Made by a program: the position numbers and the translations under genes. The notes beneath the pieces are model-generated. The model made no database searches. It was not told where the DNA came from and saw only the letters and a list, made by a program, of their open reading frames with translations. Below are positions 1,892-26,250 of a DNA stretch of 27,982 bases, one piece after another. This DNA is from a virus. Position 1 is the stretch's first letter, and every line of letters begins with the position of its first letter. The stretch is from the IMG/VR virus record IMGVR_UViG_3300037116_000129, positions 1 to 27,982 of that record. One strand, written 5' to 3'.

Positions 1892-2137
1892 TCAGGTCTC
1901 CCCGACCAGGTCGCTTGCCGTGGTGTTCGTGGCGTACACCTTCGTGGCGTTGGGGTAGATGTAGGTGCCGGCGGGCACCGCGTTGTAGACCACGCCCGAC
2001 GCGATGGGGGTATCGACCTTTACGTTGCCCGTGACGCCGACGTAAATGCGCCAGACAGGCGCGGCAAAGACCGTGGTGTCGCTGGGGGTGATGGTCATCG
2101 CCCCTGCGCCGCGGAAATCACGAAAGCTGAGAGACAT
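1892..2137 (-). CDS. Spike-base-like phage protein (RCAP_Rcc01079-type)
   Basis: An 81-residue beta-rich protein. The pattern DTTVFAAPVWRIYVGVTG, then V-PAGTY, then KVYATNTTASDLVG resembles the small spike-base proteins (RCAP_Rcc01079 family) encoded by gene transfer agents and many siphoviruses, in which a virion-surface beta domain carries a central VPAG turn and ends in an ATGTTA-D-like motif. The match is by remembered pattern only. The gene overlaps the 90-residue gene upstream by 20 bases. In the virion it would sit on a head or tail spike; its position at the far end of the late operon fits a surface component. Confidence 0.6.
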   Translation of the reverse strand: MSLSFRDFRGAGAMTITPSDTTVFAAPVWRIYVGVTGNVKVDTPIASGVVYNAVPAGTYIYPNATKVYATNTTASDLVGET

Positions 2138-2390
2138 CGGCAGGTTCCCTCGACGGGGTTTCCCAGCGGGCGGGCATCCGGTATCCCAGCTCGAGCAGGA
2201 TCGCCAGCACCTCGCTATGGGTTGGATTGGGCCGCTGGCACTCGATCTTGTACGTGTGCAGCGCCGTGGCGAATTCCGTCTCCCACGCCTCGTATTGGCT
2301 GCGCACCGAGTCTGCGCACTTGTGCAGGTCGGGCAATCGGGCCCGGTGGCGCTGGTAGACTGTGCGCAGGCGCTGGCGTGTCAGGATCAT
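2118..2390 (-). CDS. Hypothetical 90-residue phage protein
   Basis: Starts MILTRQRLRTVYQRHRARLP. It is basic at the N-terminus and helical, with a central alpha-helical stretch (about residues 25-70) and a Pro/Arg-containing tail. I recognise no domain. It overlaps the spike-base-like gene downstream, which supports it being a real coupled gene rather than a shadow. Spacing to the upstream 48-residue membrane gene is about 75 bases. Unknown function; a minor tail or lysis accessory is possible from context only. Confidence 0.55.
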   Translation of the reverse strand: MILTRQRLRTVYQRHRARLPDLHKCADSVRSQYEAWETEFATALHTYKIECQRPNPTHSEVLAILLELGYRMPARWETPSREPADVSQLS

Positions 2391-2464: not shown

Positions 2465-2611
2465 TCAGCCGCCGCGGACGCGATGGGTTAGGCTTATGAC
2501 GAATGCGCCGGCGGCGAAGCCGCAAAAGAACCAGCCCCAGTGCGGGCAGTTCCATTGGAACGCCTGCGGGTGTGGGACCAGGAACGTTTGCGCGAAGAGG
2601 GCCGAGATCAT
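2465..2611 (-). CDS. 48-residue single-helix membrane protein
   Basis: A short gene starting MISALFAQTF and ending LTHRVRGG. It has one hydrophobic segment (about residues 24-41, WGWFFCGFAAGAFVIS) followed by positive charges, which suggests an inner-membrane protein. Its ATG overlaps the lipoprotein stop codon as ATGA (2608-2611), strong evidence for translational coupling. Together with the lipoprotein it could form a two-component lysis pair such as spanins, but an inner spanin normally has a periplasmic coiled coil, which is absent here. Function is therefore open. Confidence 0.55.
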   Translation of the reverse strand: MISALFAQTFLVPHPQAFQWNCPHWGWFFCGFAAGAFVISLTHRVRGG

Positions 2612-3047: not shown

Positions 3048-4739
3048 CTAGCTCGCCGGCGGACCGTAGACGGCGGTGATGTCCGAGATCGTCTGCGCCA
3101 CCAGGGCGGCGACAGTTGTCTGGGCTGCGTTCACACAACAATGCGCGAGGCGAACGACCGACTGGGCGCGCGCGAAACCGGTTTGCGCGGTGGACAGCGC
3201 CGCCTGGTCGTTCAGGAGCGTGGCCTGGGCGGACTGAAGATTGGCCAGGTCCGTGTTGATCGTGTCAGGCGTGGGCATGTCGCGCGGTCGCTGCTCACGC
3301 GAGCAGCTCGGGGAGGCCGCGCCGTCGCCGGAGCTCGAAGACGTGGACTGCGCCGCGGTCAGGATTTGCAGGAGCAGGGGCAGGTACTGCTCGAGCACGG
3401 GCAGAAGCTGGGTGATCAGCCCGGATATGGCTGTCAGCGTGAGGCGCGGCGAGGGCTTGGTCATGGATTGTCCTTGTGAACTGGGTGAGGCGGATTGCCA
3501 TAGGGTGGCCAGGCGCGAGCGCACGCTGGGCTCGCTCAGGCGCAGGATTGAGGCAAGGAACGGGTGTGCGGTCGCGGCGTCCTCGACGCCCTGGACCGCG
3601 GCTGCCTGGGCCAGCGCCAAGGTGGGCGGCGCAACGGCCGGCGGCGGAGGGGTCGGAGGAGACGCTGCCGGCGGAGAGGCCGGCGGCGCCGCGCTCGTGC
3701 CACTGGTGAGGAGGCTGACGAGCGCCGGGCCATTCGGCGAGCCGAGGCCCGTACACGGGTCCCAACCGGGGGACGCGGTGTAGGCGCCGTTGTTGCCCGT
3801 GAGGATGTCGCGCATGGCCGCCGGCGTGCCGTAGAGCAGCGCGGGGAGCTGGTGACCGTTGAAGCCCGCGGCCTTGCAGGCGGCGGCGATCCCGGCCCAC
3901 AACGGCGCGACCGCCGAGGTGCCGCCCATCGCCTGCACCGCCTCATTTAGCACGATCCGCCAGCCAGGGCCCGAGGGGTCGGCCAGGCCGGACACGTCGG
4001 GCACGCCGCGCATGGCGGCGGTTTGCGTCTGCCAGTCGGGGCGGGTGAAGCACACGCTGAAGCCGCCGCCGGAGCCGTCGCCACGGCCGTCGTTCCACAC
4101 GGTTTCTCCCGTCGAGCCGAACGTCGTGCCGCCGCAGCCGATCGAGCCTGGATAGGACGCGGGAAAATCGACGTTGGTCCCGCCTTCGCCGTCGCTCGAG
4201 TCGCCGTCGCCGCTGGCGACGAACACCGGCACGCCGGCGGAGTCGGCCCCATCGATCGCGGCGGCGACGGTGGAACGATCCATCGAGCTCCACGCGTTCT
4301 CCGGCCCGCCCCAGGAAATCGAAATCGCATCGACGCCGGCGGCGACCAGGGCGTTGATGCCCGCGGCGAAATGCGTGCCGCCATCGTTGGGCGCCCACGC
4401 GATCACGATCTTGCACTGACGGCCGGCTATCGACTGGCACACGCCGCCGGCGACCTGGATGTCGAGCGCGACCTCGCCGTCAGCCGCTCCGCCCGGAGCA
4501 TTGACGGCGTCCGCGATCGGGAGATTGGTGATGACAGGCACCGGCTGGCCCATGTACGGGAAGGCCGTCACATTGTCGGCGTTGAGGTAGCCGCCGCCGA
4601 GCTCCAGGATCCCGATCACCGGCTGCCGGGCCGCTTTGACGTTGGGTAGCTGGTAGAAGGCTGCGACCTGGAGCGGGGTGAGCGAGCCTGTGGCGCGCTG
4701 ACCGATGCGACGGACGCGAAATTTCGGGGTGCAAAGCAT
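3048..4739 (-). CDS. Sedolisin (S53) peptidase with C-terminal extensions
   Basis: 563 residues. Residues 19-345 match the catalytic domain of kumamolisin/sedolisin serine-carboxyl peptidases, starting at the TPLQVAAFYQLP stretch that opens mature kumamolisin. The catalytic residues are all present: E89 and D93 (EVALD), oxyanion D178 (ASGD) and S275 (GGTSAVAP). The calcium-site pattern (DILTGNN at 311, WDPCTGLGSPNG at 326) is also kept. There is no signal peptide and no large N-terminal activation propeptide, which most family members have. A Pro-rich linker (about 348-373) leads to a helical segment, a hydrophobic helix (about 432-463) and a Gln/Ala-rich coiled-coil-like tail (490-550). M426 (at 3464) has AAGGA just upstream, so the tail might also be made separately. 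It follows the holin-like gene, which suggests a lysis or virion-associated protease. Confidence 0.88.
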   Translation of the reverse strand: MLCTPKFRVRRIGQRATGSLTPLQVAAFYQLPNVKAARQPVIGILELGGGYLNADNVTAFPYMGQPVPVITNLPIADAVNAPGGAADGEVALDIQVAGGVCQSIAGRQCKIVIAWAPNDGGTHFAAGINALVAAGVDAISISWGGPENAWSSMDRSTVAAAIDGADSAGVPVFVASGDGDSSDGEGGTNVDFPASYPGSIGCGGTTFGSTGETVWNDGRGDGSGGGFSVCFTRPDWQTQTAAMRGVPDVSGLADPSGPGWRIVLNEAVQAMGGTSAVAPLWAGIAAACKAAGFNGHQLPALLYGTPAAMRDILTGNNGAYTASPGWDPCTGLGSPNGPALVSLLTSGTSAAPPASPPAASPPTPPPPAVAPPTLALAQAAAVQGVEDAATAHPFLASILRLSEPSVRSRLATLWQSASPSSQGQSMTKPSPRLTLTAISGLITQLLPVLEQYLPLLLQILTAAQSTSSSSGDGAASPSCSREQRPRDMPTPDTINTDLANLQSAQATLLNDQAALSTAQTGFARAQSVVRLAHCCVNAAQTTVAALVAQTISDITAVYGPPAS

Positions 4740-4778: not shown

Positions 4779-4970
4779 TCAAGCCGGCCGGTAATTCAGG
4801 ACGAGCTGCGCGGTGTTGAGCGCGCCGAAATAACCCTTCGCGCCGTCCGGGCGCCGACCATGCAGCGTCTCGAGGTTGACGTTTCGTGCATAACAGTTGT
4901 TACCGTGCGGGTCCCAGGACGAAGTCAATTGCCAGCCGGACGGTGGTCGATGCACGCTCGCGGACGCCAT
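4779..4970 (-). CDS. Doubtful small open frame between holin-like and sedolisin genes
   Basis: A 63-residue frame ending NTAQLVLNYRPA. It overlaps the holin-like gene by 71 bases from its only ATG; a TTG at 4928 would shorten the overlap. The C-terminal half (NLETLHGRRPDGAKGYFGAL) has ordinary protein composition, while the N-terminal half looks like a shadow of the upstream gene. No good ribosome site is seen. I cannot assign a function and the start is uncertain. Confidence 0.35.
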   Translation of the reverse strand: MASASVHRPPSGWQLTSSWDPHGNNCYARNVNLETLHGRRPDGAKGYFGALNTAQLVLNYRPA

Positions 4971-5253
4971 CGATGACCGCCTGGGCGAGGACGACGCCGG
5001 CCAGGCCTCCCAGGAAGCTCAGGCCGCTGCGGGCATGCTCAGTGGCGAGGCGCGGAGCCCATTGCGCGAGCAGTTCACAGATCCAGGGCATGACGAAGCC
5101 GCTGAAACAGGCGCCGACGATCACCAGGGCGAACATGCGCCGCTTGGGCGCCCCCGCGGGCTGCAGCAGCGCGAAACTCAGCGCACCGGCGACGCAGCCC
5201 GCGGCGTCGATGACGCCGGGGGGAATCTCCATGGCCAGCCTCGCGTGCTTCAT
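4900..5253 (-). CDS. Three-helix membrane protein, holin-like
   Basis: 117 residues with three predicted hydrophobic helices at about 14-33, 40-62 and 77-95, separated by short charged turns (APKRR, RLATEHARS), and a charged C-terminus. This size and topology fit class I phage holins, which form the inner-membrane lesion that starts lysis. A GAGGGAAAC ribosome site precedes the ATG at 5253. It lies between the oxygenase and the sedolisin peptidase. No sequence motif proves holin function; a general small membrane protein is the alternative. Confidence 0.55.
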   Translation of the reverse strand: MKHARLAMEIPPGVIDAAGCVAGALSFALLQPAGAPKRRMFALVIVGACFSGFVMPWICELLAQWAPRLATEHARSGLSFLGGLAGVVLAQAVIDGVRERASTTVRLAIDFVLGPAR

Positions 5254-5320: not shown

Positions 5321-5959
5321 CTAATGGCAACGGGTAGTGTGGACGTTCACACTGGCCGCGCCTGGGGGGGGGACTCGCGATCCGAAATCTGCGTGCATCC
5401 GTCGCCCCGCGCCAGGTTGAGCGCCGTACCAAAACACAGCCAGCGAACGCCGGGCGACGTCGGCCGGCCCGGTCACGGCGCGGACCTGGTGCTGTTCCGC
5501 GCGGCAATCGAAGACTACCAGCCGCCCGGGCAGCGGCTCGACAACGGCGCCGCCGGCGAACACCAGCTCGCCGCCCCAGAGCGGCGTCCACAATTCATGG
5601 ACCCACAGCACGGCCGACAGCACCCGCTGGATGCCGAGCCGGCCATGCGTGTCGGCGTCGAGGTGTGGCGCGAGCCCTGGCCCGGGCGGCATCTCGTGCA
5701 ATCCAGCGCCCCGCAGGCCCAGGTCGCAAATCAACGGGCGGACAGCCGCCGGGAACCAGTCGGCCACGGGCAGGGCGGCCAGCTCGGCGAGGAGCAGCCC
5801 GCACGCCGTCGGCAGCGGCGTGGTAAGGTCGCTGGCGCGCTTGCACTGCGTCGCTGGATCGTAGGCGACCCAGCCCGGCCAATCGGCGGCCGGCCACGCT
5901 TCGCGCGCTGCGTGGATCCGCTCCGGCGGGAACAGGCCGTCATGCACTACGAAATTCAT
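5321..5959 (-). CDS. 2-oxoglutarate/Fe(II)-dependent dioxygenase
   Basis: 212 residues from the ATG at 5959, which has GGAGGT upstream and overlaps the methyltransferase stop as TGATG. Counting from the GTG one codon earlier, the metal-binding facial triad is H100 and D102 (APHLDAD) and H158 (AEQHQV), and R171/R172 (RRSLAVFWY) is placed to bind 2-oxoglutarate. The double-stranded beta-helix core between them, GELVF...LPGRLVVFDC, is typical of prolyl-hydroxylase-like enzymes. Likely role: hydroxylation of a protein, sugar or nucleotide. It ends a row of glycosyltransferase-like, methyltransferase and oxygenase genes, so a shared modification target is plausible. The last codons run through a copy of the GTGTGAACGTTCACAC palindrome (giving VNVHT), suggesting the repeat has altered the C-terminus. 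Confidence 0.82.
   Translation of the reverse strand: MNFVVHDGLFPPERIHAAREAWPAADWPGWVAYDPATQCKRASDLTTPLPTACGLLLAELAALPVADWFPAAVRPLICDLGLRGAGLHEMPPGPGLAPHLDADTHGRLGIQRVLSAVLWVHELWTPLWGGELVFAGGAVVEPLPGRLVVFDCRAEQHQVRAVTGPADVARRSLAVFWYGAQPGAGRRMHADFGSRVPPPGAASVNVHTTRCH
5336..5353. repeat. GTGTGAACGTTCACAC palindrome, copy 1 (one mismatch)
   Basis: Reads AGTGTGGACGTTCACACT, one base away from the perfect 18-bp palindrome seen at 17710. It lies inside the last codons of the oxygenase gene. Confidence 0.75.
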
Positions 5960-9415: not shown

Positions 9416-9517
9416 CTAACCACAGAGGCACAGAGGCACCGAGAAACTCACCGAGGAATTCATTGGGTTAATCTTCTCTGTGATCTTTCCTCTGTGCCTC
9501 TGTGTCTCTGTGGTTAG
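9416..9517. repeat. Long accacagag inverted repeat, copy 1
   Basis: CTAACCACAGAGGCACAGAG at 9416 is mirrored by its near-complement ending GGTTAG at 9517, with arms of about 45 bp and several mismatches. It fills the gap between two tail genes. Confidence 0.85.
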
Positions 9518-9522
9518 GCCGA

Positions 9523-10722
9523 TCAGTTCGTCGTGCTCGGGATCTCCAGCAGCGCCAAGTCGCCGTAGTCATACACGCGATCAACCACGATCGCCGTGGG
9601 CAACGGGTGAGCGGTGCCTCCGCTCGTGCCCGTCTTGTACCAGGGCCACGCATACCACCAGCCCTCCTTGATGATCGGGTCGGAGGCGCCGACCACCAGC
9701 GCGGGCACGGACGGGCCGTTCGGCGTCCAGGAGGAACTGCCGACGGCGTTCCATTGTGCCGCCGAAATGTTGGGCTGATTCCCCGTCGTCACCTGCAGCG
9801 CCTCGTAGATCGCGCCGTTGAAGATCACCAGATCGCCGACCTGGTACGTAGCCGACGTCGACCAGGCGTTGCCGATCGGGGCGTTATCCAGGTTGCCCAC
9901 CATCGTCGAGGTGAAGAGGTAGCCGTTGTAGGTGACCTGGGAGCCGATCTGATAGGTCTCGGTGCTCACCCAATCCGCGGCTGTCGCGGTGAGGTTTTTC
10001 GAGTAAGCGAACATGAACGTGATGTCGAGCTGCGTGTCGCTGTTGGTGCTCATCGGCGCGCCGCGAAACAGCACGCTGCCCTTGGGAAACAGAAACGTCT
10101 GGCCCTTGTAGATGATCGTCAAATCGGTGGCGTTCACGCAGGGCGTGATGTTCGCGACCTGCCAAAAATAGAGCGGACTCAGCGGCTGGCCGTCGAAGCC
10201 GATCGGGTTGGCGGTGTTGAGCCGCAGCGTGATTGTGAACTCGATCTTGGCAATCTCGACATCGACGCCGGCAACCTCAGTTTCGCTGACGCCGATCGCC
10301 CCGTTGAAATCGGGGATCCCGGACGTGAACGCCCCGTCGCCCATCAGCACGCCGCCGAGAATGCAGTCGTAGGTGGCGATATGCTCCAGGGCCTGCTGCC
10401 GCTTGACGGTCTGAGTGCCGATATTGAACTTCAAATCGAACTGCTGCGGCGTGTCGGCGTAATCGCACGTCGCCTCCCAGACGCCGCCGCCGATCTCCTT
10501 GACGGAGACCTTGTCCAGGAAGAGACTGAGCTGCTGCCCGGTGCTCGAAATGCTGGTCTCGGTCTGGGGCGCGGCGGTAATGACCGCGATCTGGATAGCC
10601 AACTTCTGCGTCGAGCCCGTCAGCGCGTAGACCCGCTTGGCGGTCGGGCCCTTGAACTGGATCGAGCCCTCCTGCATGGGCTTCTCGATAATCGAGATCC
10701 CGTTGACGTTCATCACTGCCAT
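9523..10722 (-). CDS. Tail protein with two CBM5/12-like modules
   Basis: 399 residues, with GGGGTGA before the ATG. Residues 1-245 form a beta-rich tail-type domain. Residues 250-288 and 290-328 are two consecutive modules of the form W-x-Y-x-G-V-YNG-F/Y-x-P-x-W (YQIGSQVTYNGYLFTS; YQVGDLVIFNGAIYEALQ). These match the carbohydrate-binding module 5/12 pattern found in chitinases and phage tails. The rest is beta-rich with aromatic residues (EGWWYAWPWYKTG). Likely a distal tail or baseplate protein that contacts a surface polysaccharide. It lies directly after the tape measure, where distal tail proteins are normally encoded. Confidence 0.65.
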   Translation of the reverse strand: MAVMNVNGISIIEKPMQEGSIQFKGPTAKRVYALTGSTQKLAIQIAVITAAPQTETSISSTGQQLSLFLDKVSVKEIGGGVWEATCDYADTPQQFDLKFNIGTQTVKRQQALEHIATYDCILGGVLMGDGAFTSGIPDFNGAIGVSETEVAGVDVEIAKIEFTITLRLNTANPIGFDGQPLSPLYFWQVANITPCVNATDLTIIYKGQTFLFPKGSVLFRGAPMSTNSDTQLDITFMFAYSKNLTATAADWVSTETYQIGSQVTYNGYLFTSTMVGNLDNAPIGNAWSTSATYQVGDLVIFNGAIYEALQVTTGNQPNISAAQWNAVGSSSWTPNGPSVPALVVGASDPIIKEGWWYAWPWYKTGTSGGTAHPLPTAIVVDRVYDYGDLALLEIPSTTN

Positions 10723-14591: not shown

Positions 14592-14705
14592 AAAAGCCTA
14601 ACCACAGAGACACAGAGGCACAGAGAAACTCACAGAGAAGCGTTCCACCCAAATTTTCCTCTGTGGTCTTCCTCTGTGCCTCTGTGCCTCTGTGGTTAGG
14701 CTTTT
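14592..14705. repeat. Long accacagag inverted repeat, copy 2
   Basis: AAAAGCCTAACCACAGAG at 14592 is mirrored by CTCTGTGGTTAGGCTTTT ending at 14705 (arms of about 45 bp, imperfect inside). Read on the minus strand it ends in a TTTT run after the tail tube stop, so it could also work as a terminator-like hairpin. Confidence 0.88.
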
Positions 14706-17658: not shown

Positions 17659-17684
17659 GGGGAGTGTGAACGTTCACACTCCCC
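17659..17684. repeat. GTGTGAACGTTCACAC palindrome, copy 2 (26-bp perfect)
   Basis: The core at 17664-17679 is extended on both sides to a perfect 26-bp palindrome GGGGAGTG...CACTCCCC. It lies 13 bases upstream of the connector start codon. Confidence 0.88.
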
Positions 17685-17709: not shown

Positions 17710-17727
17710 AGTGTGAACGTTCACACT
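17710..17727. repeat. GTGTGAACGTTCACAC palindrome, copy 3
   Basis: AGTGTGAACGTTCACACT, a perfect 18-bp palindrome, 10 bases after the stop of the decoration protein gene and 25 bases from copy 2. Confidence 0.88.
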
Positions 17728-19270: not shown

Positions 19271-21727
19271 TCACGCGCCGGCGCTGTACACGCCGCCGCG
19301 GAAGTTTTGCTGGTTCGCACCGAACGGCATGGTGCCGCGGATCGAAATGCCGGGCCGGTCGAACTGGTAGTCGGGGCCGGCCTGCAGGACCTCGGGCGTG
19401 TCGACGCCCTGGAGGAACGCCACCTCAATCACGGCCAGCACGGCCGGGTTGAAGAGCACCCAGAACGCCGTGGTGTTGTTGACGTAATTGGCGTTGTCGA
19501 CGTACCGGCTCATGACCGGCTTCATCTTGCCGCCCCAGATGTTTCCGTTGGGCTGCTTGGGCGTGGAGGTCTGGCCGGTGCCGACCAGCTCGCGATAGGT
19601 GACCAGCTCCATGGCCGTCACCCAGTTGTCCGAACCGAAGAGGAGGATCGGCATCATCCCCTCCATGCCGAGCGGGCTGCCGTTCGGATCGACCTGGTTG
19701 TCGAAATACTTCTTCGCGGTCTGCAGCGAGGAGCTGCTGAGGGCCGAGGAGCCGCCGCTGATTTTGTTGGGGTTGTAAACCTTGCCCGACTTTTGATTGG
19801 CGGCGTTGTTCGTCCCGGTCGTCGTGCGCCAGAAGGCGTTGCCGTCGTCCGCGGTGAGCGTGTAGCCGGACGGGATGCTGCCGACGGCACTGCCGGTGAT
19901 GAGCGACGCCATCAGCGACCAGAACCAATCGTTGAGCGCTAGGCCGGCGCCCTGGCCGACCTTGAGCGGCACGCTGGCCAGGATGCCCATGTCGTCGTTG
20001 ACCAGGTGCGTCCAGGGGATGGTCAGAATGCCGCCATAGGGCGCGGCCTGATTGGCGAAAGCCTGGTCGCCCAGGCTGAAATTGGCGAGCTCGCCGCTGG
20101 GGCCGAACTGCTTGAACATCGTCTGTCCGAGCAAATTGATCGATTTCGAAGGCTTGAAATCGGTCACGTTGCGGATGGCGGCGATCTCGCGCCAGGACTG
20201 CTCGGTGAAGAGATAGCCCTGCAGCGCGAACTTGTTCAGCACGTTGGACAGAATGTTCTGGATCGACATGTTACTCGATCCTTCCGCGCGGATCGACGCG
20301 GAGCGGTCGAGGAAGTCCCAGGCCTTGAGCATGCTCGTCATGCCCTGCTCGCTCTTGAGATCGAGCGAGTCGCGGTAGCCGAGGCCACGCATGCCGCATT
20401 CCAGGAGCTGGTGCAGGCCCATGCGGCCCTTGAAAATCGTGTGGGCGGCCTGCTGGACCTGGTCGGTGTAGCGGGTCTTGAGCCCGTCCTGCGCATGCTT
20501 CTGCAAGCGCATCGGCACGCGCCGGAATTTCGCTTTGCCGTCCGGGGCGAGGTCGCTGTAGAACTCGTCGTCCTCGAGCAGGAACTGGTGACGGCAGGCG
20601 TGCAGCACGGCCGCCTCGATCACCGCGTCGTTGACGTCCGGCCGGCTGCTCGTGTAGGCGAGGCCGCCAGGGACGCCGAGGCCGGCCGCGGGGCGCGAGG
20701 CGCGGAGGGCTTCCAGCTCGACCTTGTCGGCCGACCAGTCGTGCGCGAGCGCGTGGGGCACCAGGTCCACCGTCTTCGTCTTGCCGTCCGCCTCGATCTC
20801 GATTTTGGTAACGCCGTATTTCTCGGCCGCGGCGGTGATCGAGCTGACGCGGAGCTGCTGGCCGGCGAGGACCTGCGCATGCTTCTTGGCCATGTCGCCG
20901 AAGATGGCCTCGGCCTCGGCCTTCAGCCGCTGCCGGCGTGCCGACTTCGATTCCTTGGGGTCGTCCTCCTCGTCCTCCTCCTCGTCGTCGGAGGCCTTGG
21001 CCGCGCACTTCTTGAGGGCGGCGCGGGCCTCGTCGGCGGTCATCGCGTCGACCTCGTCGTCGCTGTACTTGGCTGCCTTCACCTTGCCGGCAGCGCGCAG
21101 GTCGGCCATCAACGCCTTGAGGGCGATCGCGAACGGATTCATGGTGTCACCTTTTTGAGCCGCCACGGTCGCCGAGGTGTCGCCGTCGGCGCCGAGGGGG
21201 ACGAAGCTGATTTCTCCCAGCCGGGTTTCGCGGCTGATCGTGAGGGGACCGGTTACAGTCCGGCCGTTGACCTTGGTTTCTTCGCCGGCCTCGAGGAACT
21301 CGGTTCGGATGGGATCGGCGCCGACGGAGAGCTGCCAGGGGAATCCGTTTCGCGCGGGGATGACGACCTTGTCGACGTGTTGCTTTTCGCCGCTGAAGAC
21401 GCCCTCGATGGCGATCTCGCCGTCGAGAGTGACAGCGGTGGTATGCCCAACAACCTGTTCATGGTCATGTTGCCTCAGTGCCGGGCGTTGCTGGGAAGGG
21501 ACCTGCACACCGGCGATGTCAATGATGACGTCGTTACACCAGCCCATCGGCCGCATTTGCGCGCCGGTGTACGCCACGCCCTTGAAGGTCGCGAGCTTGC
21601 CTTCGCCCTCGGCCGCCTGAATCGCGCAGGCGCCGGACGCCACGGCGGCGATGCGAAACGCTTTCGGGGCGTCGCGCCGCGCGGCCTTGATCGGCACCGG
21701 GCGACGGTTTTTCCATTTACGCGGCAC
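19271..21727 (-). CDS. Fused prohead protease-scaffold-major capsid protein
   Basis: 818 residues in three parts. Residues about 45-185 are a prohead protease (S78/HK97 type): H87 in RQHDHEQVVG and S134 in WQLSVGADP are the likely catalytic His and Ser. Residues about 196-345 are a charged, helical scaffold or delta-like region with an acidic run near 247-258. Residues about 355-818 are a major capsid protein resembling Mu gpT/HK97 fold proteins (LFTEQSWREIAAIRNVTDFK, LGDQAFANQAAPYGGILTIPWTHLVNDD, LFNPAVLAVIEVAFLQG). Fused protease-capsid genes are known in phages. M196 has AAAGGTGACACC directly upstream, so a protease-less capsid could also be made. It overlaps the portal stop by 11 bases. 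Confidence 0.88.
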   Translation of the reverse strand: MPRKWKNRRPVPIKAARRDAPKAFRIAAVASGACAIQAAEGEGKLATFKGVAYTGAQMRPMGWCNDVIIDIAGVQVPSQQRPALRQHDHEQVVGHTTAVTLDGEIAIEGVFSGEKQHVDKVVIPARNGFPWQLSVGADPIRTEFLEAGEETKVNGRTVTGPLTISRETRLGEISFVPLGADGDTSATVAAQKGDTMNPFAIALKALMADLRAAGKVKAAKYSDDEVDAMTADEARAALKKCAAKASDDEEEDEEDDPKESKSARRQRLKAEAEAIFGDMAKKHAQVLAGQQLRVSSITAAAEKYGVTKIEIEADGKTKTVDLVPHALAHDWSADKVELEALRASRPAAGLGVPGGLAYTSSRPDVNDAVIEAAVLHACRHQFLLEDDEFYSDLAPDGKAKFRRVPMRLQKHAQDGLKTRYTDQVQQAAHTIFKGRMGLHQLLECGMRGLGYRDSLDLKSEQGMTSMLKAWDFLDRSASIRAEGSSNMSIQNILSNVLNKFALQGYLFTEQSWREIAAIRNVTDFKPSKSINLLGQTMFKQFGPSGELANFSLGDQAFANQAAPYGGILTIPWTHLVNDDMGILASVPLKVGQGAGLALNDWFWSLMASLITGSAVGSIPSGYTLTADDGNAFWRTTTGTNNAANQKSGKVYNPNKISGGSSALSSSSLQTAKKYFDNQVDPNGSPLGMEGMMPILLFGSDNWVTAMELVTYRELVGTGQTSTPKQPNGNIWGGKMKPVMSRYVDNANYVNNTTAFWVLFNPAVLAVIEVAFLQGVDTPEVLQAGPDYQFDRPGISIRGTMPFGANQQNFRGGVYSAGA

Positions 21728-24025: not shown

Positions 24026-24211
24026 TCAAGAGGATGTGTGAACGTTCACACCCGCCGCGGCTTGGGGAAGCTCGACGGTACAGAACGGACGCGCGCAGGC
24101 GAGACAGACGCGCCGCCGGCGAACCGCGCCGGAGCGGCGCCGGGTGTTGACGACACGCGAGCACGTGGACCGGCATTTCGGGCAACGTAGGCCCGCCTCC
24201 GAGTCGCTCAT
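24026..24211 (-). CDS. NrdR-like zinc-ribbon protein
   Basis: 61 residues from the ATG at 24211, which overlaps the terminase stop as ATGA and has GGGAGGGC upstream. It contains CPKCRSTCSRVVNTRRRS, followed by AVRRRRVCLACARPFCTVE. The CPxC...S-V-x-x-R...RRRR-x-C-x-x-C-x-x-x-F pattern is the N-terminal zinc ribbon of NrdR, the ribonucleotide reductase repressor. The ATP-cone that NrdR needs for nucleotide sensing is absent, so this is a stand-alone DNA-binding-type ribbon. The last residues (VNVHT) come from a GTGTGAACGTTCACAC palindrome. Confidence 0.65.
   Translation of the reverse strand: MSDSEAGLRCPKCRSTCSRVVNTRRRSGAVRRRRVCLACARPFCTVELPQAAAGVNVHTSS
24036..24051. repeat. GTGTGAACGTTCACAC palindrome, copy 4
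   Basis: A perfect 16-bp copy inside the last codons of the NrdR-like gene and upstream of the cysteine-rich zinc-finger gene. Confidence 0.88.
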
Positions 24212-26250
24212 TTTTTGCCCTCCCTTTGCTTCGCGCGGGCCTGGTCGTACAGCTCGCGGTAATCCACCGGCCTGGCCGGCTTGGGCTTGAGGTCTGGCAT
24301 CGCTTCGAGTCTGACACCCAGGATCGAGGCGGCCACGCAGCAGCCGACGGCGCAATCGAGCCAGTGATTGTCTGGCCTGCCCGGCTTTTCGTACCACTCC
24401 TCGAGCTCGCGGCCGTGGCCCTTACGCGACTTGCGGATTTCGGCCGACAGATGGTCGGCCAGCATCGAATGCGCTTCGGCCTCGCCGCCCCACAACGTCA
24501 GGGCCCCGCTGGCACCGAGCGGCGCGGCAAGGCGCGCGTGCAGAAACGTCTTCCACCAATTGGTGTCGTAGAGACAGGCGCGCACCACGCCCTTGGACGG
24601 CGCGGCCTGAATGAACCAGTTGAGCCCCGCGCGCTCGCCCGTCTTGGGCTTGCGCTCGGATAGAGGCGGCGAGCGCTCGCCCACAAATATGCCGTGCGAG
24701 GGTACGAGCAGCGCGGCATGCGGGCTCTCACGGCAGAATTTTTTGACGACCTCGGTGGATTGCCCCCAATTGGCGTCTACCAGAAGTTTCGCGATCCGCA
24801 TGTTCGCCCCGCCCTGGCCCGGATATTCGCGGGTGAGGAGCTGGCCGGCCAGGGCGTCCAGGCCGGCGCGGAGCTGGGCCTCGAGCCCGGACACGTGCGT
24901 TACCGCGGCCAGCGTCCGTTTGGCGTCGGCCAGCGTGTAGTACAGCCGGCGCTGGTCGGGGTAACTTCCGTAGTCGATGATCGAGCCGCCGAATGTTTCG
25001 TCCCAGGCAATCACCGTGTACCAGAGCAGCTTCCGCTGCACGTCGATGAACGCCGTGAGGTTGGTGGCTTCCGCGGGCACGTGCCACCGCGGCACGCGTG
25101 ACAGACGCGCGCAGATCGCGCGCGGGTCGATCGGCTCCTCTTCCTCGACGCGTGCCAAGGGCGAGTTCTGGTATTCGGCCATGAACGCGCGGCGGTCGCG
25201 CAGAAACAAGTGCATCGCCGATTGCAGGGCGGACACGTCGCCAGGCAGCACGCGTGCGGGCCACGAATGCACGGCGCCCTCGTCGAGCTCGACGCGATGC
25301 TCGAGGTAATAGGCCGTGGACTCGGCGAAGTCGGGCGGCTGTTTCAGCGCGCAGCCGCGGTAGACGTCGAAGTAGCGGTCCCAGGCCTCCAGGTTCGCCG
25401 GCATCGACGGCAGGAGCTGGTAACGCTCGCCGCGCCACAGCGGCTGCTTCTCCCGATCGAGGAACGTGTCCGCCAGGTCCTCCGGCGCGATCACCGTGCA
25501 GAGCATGACCGCCGACATCGCCTTGTCGGGCCCCGCCAGGCCGAGGACGTCGCCCTGGATCGTTTCGATGCGTGTCTGGTTTTGCAGCGGGCTGTTGGCG
25601 GATTGCTTGGTCTGCGGATCGTCGAGCAGCACGTAGTCGGGGCGGACGCTCTCGCCGGACACCATCGTGAACAGACTGCCGCGGACGCCCTCGCTGGTCA
25701 TGCCGGCGGTTGCCAATACCGCCCCCGAGGTCGGCACCATGCCATCCCGCAGGGGCCAGTCGGCCGGCCAGTTATCGGGGGGCGCGATCGTGGGCAGCAC
25801 GATCCGCTCCTTGCCCCATTCCAACATCGTCGGCTCGCCGTCAGAGGTCTGGCCATTCGCGCGCTGGGCGATGCCCGCAACGCGCTGGCAGGCGTAGGCG
25901 ATCTCAGGAAAGTCGGCGGTGTACAGCGGCAGGAAGCGGATGAATTTTTTGAGCGCGTCGAGCGATTCGCGCGACTTGGAGTTCGTCGCGTTGAGCAGCA
26001 GCACATAGCGGCGCAGGGCGTAACTGATCGCCCATAACGCCAGCATCCGGTTGACCGTGGTCTTGCCGCTTCCGCGTGGCATGGCCAAGGCGAACAGCGC
26101 GCTCAGCTCGACGGCTTCCTTGATCCGATCGATGGCCGCGTTCTGGTCGTCCGACCAGGCCAGTGAAAACGTCTCAGGGTTGTACGTGCGGCAAAACAGC
26201 TTCGGGTCGCGACAGCGGCGGCGCCGCTCAATGTCGGCGATCGCCGGCAC
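24208..26250 (-). CDS. Terminase large subunit
   Basis: 680 residues from the GTG at 26250. Walker A is MPRGSGKTT (57-65) and Walker B is DYVLLDD (205-211); the pair forms the packaging ATPase. The nuclease half shows FIDVQ (D403), KLLVDANWG (D492) and a late DNHWLDCAVG acidic motif, the RNase H-like headful or cos nuclease. Upstream of the GTG the same frame still reads protein-like: DDSTDYGRHRKRAARRAAAA and then SAEGRDIGPVP, back to a stop at 26356-26358. It contains no ATG, GTG or TTG. The true start may therefore be lost or frameshifted. The gene drives DNA packaging and heads the structural block. Confidence 0.9.
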   Translation of the reverse strand: MPAIADIERRRRCRDPKLFCRTYNPETFSLAWSDDQNAAIDRIKEAVELSALFALAMPRGSGKTTVNRMLALWAISYALRRYVLLLNATNSKSRESLDALKKFIRFLPLYTADFPEIAYACQRVAGIAQRANGQTSDGEPTMLEWGKERIVLPTIAPPDNWPADWPLRDGMVPTSGAVLATAGMTSEGVRGSLFTMVSGESVRPDYVLLDDPQTKQSANSPLQNQTRIETIQGDVLGLAGPDKAMSAVMLCTVIAPEDLADTFLDREKQPLWRGERYQLLPSMPANLEAWDRYFDVYRGCALKQPPDFAESTAYYLEHRVELDEGAVHSWPARVLPGDVSALQSAMHLFLRDRRAFMAEYQNSPLARVEEEEPIDPRAICARLSRVPRWHVPAEATNLTAFIDVQRKLLWYTVIAWDETFGGSIIDYGSYPDQRRLYYTLADAKRTLAAVTHVSGLEAQLRAGLDALAGQLLTREYPGQGGANMRIAKLLVDANWGQSTEVVKKFCRESPHAALLVPSHGIFVGERSPPLSERKPKTGERAGLNWFIQAAPSKGVVRACLYDTNWWKTFLHARLAAPLGASGALTLWGGEAEAHSMLADHLSAEIRKSRKGHGRELEEWYEKPGRPDNHWLDCAVGCCVAASILGVRLEAMPDLKPKPARPVDYRELYDQARAKQREGKK

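Follow-up and report, generated by a model that had tools for sequence, protein, structure and literature searches.

The lysis enzymes of phages that infect bacteria are taken to be peptidoglycan hydrolases. In the phage fragment described here, a gene for a protein-cleaving enzyme, a sedolisin-like peptidase of family S53, follows a holin-like gene. This raises the questions of whether the enzyme is intact, whether the gene belongs to the phage proper, and whether it acts in host lysis or elsewhere in the life of the phage.

The phage and its host

The DNA analysed, called the window throughout, corresponds to a linear IMG/VR record 27,982 bases long; it is a virus fragment whose genes lie mostly on the minus strand. 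A second contig, G001, represents the same phage (99.98% over 20.8 kb); it adds 6 kb beyond the terminase side and stops short of the S53 gene. The head part of the window contains terminase, portal, an S78 protease-capsid fusion and head-tail joining genes, followed by the tape measure and two tail-end proteins. After the tail genes come sugar, methyl and oxygenase genes, the holin-like gene, the S53 gene, small genes and, near the window end, a transposase.

Several observations concern this gene map itself. The prohead protease (S78; PF04586) and the major capsid protein (PF25209) are fused in an open reading frame of 818 amino acids (19271-21727), as they are in the syntenic phages G002 and G456 described below. 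One tail-end protein (9523-10722) carries a CBM_5_12 chitin-binding module (residues 286-324, E=4e-10). Two repeats of about 105 bp (9416-9519 and 14596-14699, 82% identical), with translations like '...TEAQRHRE...LCASVPLWL', resemble dispersed repeats known from bacterial genomes. The IS transposase at the contig end (211-1593; DDE_5 / DDE_Tnp_1) probably explains why the assembly stops there.

The phage and its host were placed with the relatives of one gene:

24208-26250, minus strand: terminase large subunit (GpA type; Pfam)

Its relatives in bacterial genomes are nearly all from Planctomycetota, the best one being found in a Gemmataceae MAG (52%). Judged from these terminase relatives, the host is thus probably a member of the Planctomycetes.

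An S53 peptidase without a prosegment

The gene under study and its parts are as follows:

3048-4739, minus strand (read from 4739 to 3048): S53 sedolisin-like peptidase gene, 563 amino acids (open reading frame and translation, kumamolisin match, homologues in G002 and G456)
4683-4739, minus strand: N-terminal 19 amino acids, MLCTPKFRVRRIGQRATGS, aligned to the last prosegment motif of bacterial S53 enzymes; start kept in three phages
3705-4682, minus strand: catalytic domain, residues 20-345, with E89, D93, D178 and S275 (alignments; dN/dS against G002)
3051-3704, minus strand: C-terminal extension, residues 346-563, conserved in three phages

A phmmer search of the PDB matched the protein to kumamolisin 1t1e (E=4.7e-52); residues 14-352 of the query cover residues 188-551 of 1t1e, which is the mature domain only, and the S53 catalytic domain is present in full length. 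Human TPP1 was a weak match. E89, D93, D178 and S275 line up with the catalytic residues of kumamolisin and do not vary across the 86 S53 sequences aligned. D311 and D327, placed by sequence only in the calcium site region near the C-terminus of the catalytic domain, are conserved in the alignment as well. The sole Pfam match was subtilase (PF00082), and a PHROGs scan of the protein gave no match. Compared with G002, the catalytic domain shows a dN of 0.20 and a dS of 0.70 and by this measure is under purifying selection. As far as residues and domain can tell, the phage protein is a catalytically intact serine-carboxyl peptidase.

Bacterial S53 homologues have about 180 additional N-terminal residues, and in the alignment the start of the phage protein, TPKFRVRR, corresponds to the last prosegment motif of the bacterial enzymes (RPSFRTR, TPKFKINAK). 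Residue 19 of the phage protein pairs with residue 5 of mature kumamolisin-As. The activation domain Pro-kuma_activ (PF09286) was absent from the whole window in a domain search that included separate open reading frames, which rules out that the prosegment is encoded by one of these. Hydropathy analysis revealed no signal peptide, hydrophobic N-terminus or transmembrane helix in the protein. The preliminary description had proposed a propeptide-less S53 enzyme with all catalytic residues, no signal peptide and a start close to that of mature kumamolisin, and all three points were confirmed.

The C-terminal extension of about 218 amino acids is missing from most bacterial S53 enzymes in the alignment. 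It comprises a Pro-rich linker, a conserved LAQAQAAAVQGVEDA...RLA.LW segment, an amphipathic stretch and a predicted coiled coil. Met426 was considered as an internal start for a separate C-terminal protein: each of the three phages has an ATG here, preceded in two of them by a purine-rich stretch, but the frame stays open through this ATG. An AlphaFold model of the S53 protein built from two sequences was unusable (pTM 0.32).

A late gene conserved behind small membrane proteins

Two further phages carry a full-length S53 homologue in the same gene order. G002 (41.5 kb; S53 57-62% identical to that of the window) encodes an integrase, ParA, ParB and an annealing protein; no convincing attachment repeats were found at its ends. 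G456 (31.9 kb), detected by a wider scan with an S53 alignment, has a terminase 37% and an S53 protein 52% identical to those of the window. The start MLC(T/S)PKFR(V/I)RR is common to the window and G002, and the same start motif is present in G456. The features around the S53 gene are:

4900-5253, minus strand: holin-like gene, 117 amino acids, two predicted transmembrane helices (hydropathy; PHROG 2359 holin match); 64% identical in G002
4779-4970, minus strand: open reading frame of 63 amino acids, C-terminal half matching a 65-amino-acid gene before the holin-like genes of G456
5337-5352, no strand assigned: 16-bp palindrome GTGTGAACGTCCACAC upstream of the holin-S53 cassette
2465-2611, minus strand: small gene downstream of S53, conserved in all three phages
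2118-2390, minus strand: small gene downstream of S53, conserved in all three phages, 76% identical in G002

Small holin-like or transmembrane protein genes lie directly upstream of S53 in all three phages; G456 has two of them, neither being a homologue of the holin-like gene in the window. The gap between the holin-like gene and S53 is 160 bp in the window and 16 bp in G002. The position behind a holin-like gene, reported earlier for this locus, was thus found again, with a weak holin assignment (PHROG 2359, E=5e-4). Comparison with G002 revealed higher identity for the holin-like protein and S53 than for portal (47%), capsid (43%) and tape measure (29%). The N-terminal half of the 63-amino-acid open reading frame overlaps the holin-like gene, its counterpart in G456 is intact, and the frame in the window is probably a remnant.

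The palindrome GTGT(A/G)(G/A)ACGT(C/T)(C/T)ACAC sits 38-139 bp before the first gene of the cassette in the window, G002 and G456, and additional copies precede the head genes in each of them; it was not found in the other relatives scanned. In the window it has 8 matches (4 palindromic sites, the others being 17664-17679, 17711-17726 and 24036-24051) against 0.12 expected. Its presence before the cassette in three phages suggests that the holin-like genes and S53 may share one late transcription unit. In the window, G002 and G456, the palindrome GTGTNNACGTNNACAC lies in the spaces that separate transcription units, at 33-151 bp from the gene start that follows. It is possible that it is a late operator or a parS-like site, as the phages encode ParB-like proteins.

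Since gene order and start are conserved in three phages, a recent insertion of S53 as cargo is ruled out. These comparisons point to S53 as an established late gene in a lineage of probable planctomycete phages rather than cargo.

Search for a peptidoglycan hydrolase

The preliminary description had seen no conventional endolysin in the window. We searched for amidase, muramidase, transglycosylase, CHAP, NlpC/P60 and M15/M23 domains. Pfam and PHROG scans found no peptidoglycan hydrolase family in the window and the 6-kb extension of G001, and no known domain of this kind in the S53 protein. Pfam scans also found none in the longer syntenic phages, among the best 25 families for the 43 genes of G002 and the best 25 for the 37 genes of G456; families beyond these had E-values worse than 3e-4 and 2e-3, respectively. 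A PHROG scan of G002 was likewise negative among the best 25 of 73 families, which is weaker evidence than the Pfam scan. Thus, the earlier observation holds, and a canonical endolysin in the same phage, with S53 as an unrelated cargo gene, was looked for and not found. Behind this negative stand profile searches on predicted genes; the majority of these genes lack an assigned function, and a divergent peptidoglycan hydrolase is therefore possible.

Papain-like peptidases in related planctomycete phages

In nine other terminase-related phages and prophages, these being the relatives whose late region after the tail genes was read or matched by profile search, a papain-like cysteine peptidase is encoded at or near the position of S53. 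Six of them (G013, G025, G027, G029, G040, G043) carry a member of one family, A8. In the Gemmataceae prophage G044, a papain-like peptidase of 285 amino acids lies behind a coiled-coil protein with one transmembrane segment and before ParA/ParB, just as S53 lies before ParA/ParB in G002. The peptidase of G005 has 282 amino acids, and that of G060 (579 amino acids) is a less certain assignment. The positions agree best in G044 and G005 and less closely in the others, where metabolic and small genes intervene. A Pfam search of 64 late genes of G005, G013, G029 and G040 detected no peptidoglycan hydrolase.

The assignment to papain is based on motifs and one moderate model. In the A8 family, Q100, C105, H275 and N298 are invariant in 16 sequences and follow the order Gln, Cys, His, Asn of papain. 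PF00112 scored 14.2 bits on the papain-like protein, compared to a Pfam cut-off of 20.7. The Foldseek matches listed for the model (pTM 0.65, mean pLDDT 57) are papain-family enzymes, the best being xylellain (E=5e-5); murein hydrolases of the CHAP/NlpC type are thus not favoured, though the model is only moderate. The A8 family has at least 576 relatives in viral contigs and no match in INPHARED. A large viral papain-like family (alignment A9, L120-L199; at least 576 stretches) has an N-terminal transmembrane anchor and stays under the Pfam cut-off; examples are L060:11237-12313, L063:6768-7844 and L056:14202-15308. It is common in phages related to planctomycete prophages and has no INPHARED match. 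Taken together, S53 and papain-like enzymes may be read as two unrelated proteases filling one role.

A wider group of viral S53 enzymes

Scans of viral contigs and INPHARED with the single S53 protein found no relatives. The wider viral group was detectable only with an alignment of seven S53 sequences, which matched 96 stretches of viral contigs. Of 78 readable viral open reading frames, 48 have at most 60 residues before the mature start, so that a prosegment cannot fit, and 25 have at least 110. Viral S53 enzymes with a full prosegment are L253, L280, L281, L296, L300-L303 and L305-L308, among them the very long fusions L281 (1551 amino acids), L296 (860) and L300 (991). In a FastTree phylogeny the three planctomycete-phage enzymes form one clade (support 1.0), nested in a mostly viral clade without prosegments (support 0.994) that also contains a chromosomal planctomycete enzyme, L099. 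Prosegment-bearing enzymes, viral and cellular, mostly group elsewhere in the tree.

The neighbours within two genes of viral S53 genes (n=144) include PHROG endolysins, two r1t holins, two amidases, a glucosaminidase, a CHAP and an M15 protein. In L254 an endolysin (phrog_700) is the gene next to S53; a neighbour in L282 looked lysozyme-like by eye and had no PHROG match. Other viral S53 genes lie by head genes, as in L293, where S53 follows the portal gene near the terminase, or have no clear lysis context. The link between S53 and lysis thus appears recurrent, not universal, among these contigs. Since some viral S53 genes adjoin ordinary endolysins or holins, replacement of the endolysin is not a general rule, and the idea that S53 replaces it in all phages is ruled out.

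Possible functions of the phage peptidase

S53 enzymes are active in acid and the cytoplasm is near neutral. We consider the chances about even that the protein is an intact peptidase with a part in host lysis, its gene being established among the late genes of a lineage of planctomycete phages. It would fold and build up in the cytoplasm, whose neutral pH would leave an acid-type enzyme nearly idle. Once the holin opens the inner membrane, it would leave the cytoplasm, become active outside and cleave envelope protein. In place of a prosegment and a signal peptide, the low activity of the enzyme in the cytoplasm and the holin gate would keep it safe.

Several comparisons between genomes fit a function in lysis. 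S53 lies behind small transmembrane proteins in three phages although those of G456 are non-homologous. The holin-like gene and S53 are conserved above the structural genes, and the palindrome precedes the cassette in three phages. Papain-like peptidases are found in a comparable region of related phages, without a peptidoglycan hydrolase recognised by Pfam among 64 late genes of four of them. Some of the other viral S53 genes also have endolysins or holins at most two genes away. The viral S53 genes beside head genes or without clear lysis context speak against it.

Whether S53 would be the main or an accessory lysis enzyme has about equal weight, since Planctomycetes, Gemmata obscuriglobus among them, possess peptidoglycan that is sensitive to lysozyme (PMC4432640). 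This also argues against lysis by a protease only, as a protein peptidase is not expected to cut peptidoglycan. The preliminary proposal that a protease replaces or assists a muramidase stands in part. A holin-adjacent S53 enzyme without propeptide, the lack of a recognisable endolysin and the unusual envelope of Planctomycetota are in line with it, and the papain-like peptidases in the comparable slot of other planctomycete phages strengthen the case for a protease in lysis. Replacement as a general statement does not hold, given the S53 genes beside ordinary endolysins and the peptidoglycan of the host.

As an accessory lysis enzyme, S53 would remove envelope or wall-linked proteins while an unrecognised phage protein cuts murein. 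This is a sub-case of the lysis function and not an alternative to it, and we regard it as a real possibility, though a tentative one. The host has peptidoglycan, recognisable endolysins occur at most two genes away from S53 in some other viral contigs (as in L254), and many genes of the three phages lack an assigned function; on the other hand, neither Pfam nor PHROGs offers, among the families listed, a murein hydrolase candidate in these phages. It seems unlikely that planctomycete phages lyse mainly by a holin-released protease, mostly papain-like and here a prodomain-less sedolisin, that attacks a strength-bearing protein layer without any peptidoglycan hydrolase.

The chief rival to a function in lysis is a virion-associated protease, on the tail or in the head, that would cut host surface protein at entry. 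The extension with its Pro-rich linker and coiled coil, kept in three phages, could serve for attachment; tail and fibre genes lie only a short way upstream of the gene, and S53 of L293 is found among virion genes. However, glycosyltransferase, methyltransferase and oxygenase genes separate S53 from the tail genes, and it is grouped with holin-like genes behind its own palindrome. In addition, fibre-like neighbours diverge between the window and G002 whereas holin and S53 are well conserved. A virion function is therefore doubtful in our view.

A cargo (moron) gene that serves the lysogen, for instance in nutrient scavenging, and is unrelated to lysis is quite improbable. S53 enzymes are otherwise mostly secreted scavenging proteases, the IS transposase is nearby, and among other members of the terminase family S53 is rare, with matches in 2 of 43 viral records, of which one is weak and partial, but gene, start and neighbours are conserved in three divergent phages, and without a signal peptide a lysogen could not secrete the enzyme by Sec. 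Processing of structural or glycosylated tail proteins inside the cell, compatible with a non-secreted enzyme downstream of tail and glycosyltransferase genes, is very unlikely for an acid-active peptidase in a near-neutral cytoplasm and a phage with its own S78-type prohead protease.

The nature of the planctomycete envelope, proteinaceous wall versus peptidoglycan, has been disputed for decades. Should the lysis enzyme here prove to be a protease, this would tell what holds the envelope together and provide a tool for the genetics of a phylum from which few phages are known. Whatever their function, prodomain-less viral S53 enzymes are natural test cases for how folding succeeds, and harm is avoided, in a sedolisin that lacks the prosegment.

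Comparison with known systems

The S53 family itself is known; new are the prodomain-less form and the phage context. A 2025 survey of prokaryotic viral lytic proteins (PMC12596118) does not have S53, papain or Planctomycetes among its terms, open-access papers revealed no literature linking sedolisins and phages, and the protein has no match in INPHARED or PHROGs. Found in about 50 viral contigs, the prodomain-less enzymes seem to form a group not described before.

With kumamolisin and kumamolisin-As (1t1e, 1sio) the phage enzyme shares the whole catalytic domain, the catalytic Glu, Asp and Ser, the oxyanion Asp and the GGTS motif. It differs in lacking the prosegment of about 180 amino acids and the signal peptide, in its C-terminal extension and in its viral late-gene context. 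Loss of the prosegment is not unique to the phage, as the chromosomal enzyme L099 (MAG SZAS-6), which falls in the same larger clade, also lacks it; L099 has, however, a signal peptide, another C-terminal domain and cellular gene surroundings. Other prodomain-less viral enzymes (about 48 IMG/VR contigs, such as L236, L254 and L282) have the short N-terminus and intact catalytic residues as well, but are 30-46% identical, mostly without the C-terminal extension, and lie in varied contexts, some by endolysins. The papain-like (C1-type) peptidases share the late region near small membrane genes in terminase-related phages and differ in fold and mechanism, one type having an N-terminal transmembrane anchor. 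The arrangement is similar to the holin-endolysin cassettes of tailed phages, in which a signal-less enzyme directly follows a small membrane protein (here with a weak holin assignment), but the enzyme is an S53-type protein peptidase instead of a peptidoglycan hydrolase.
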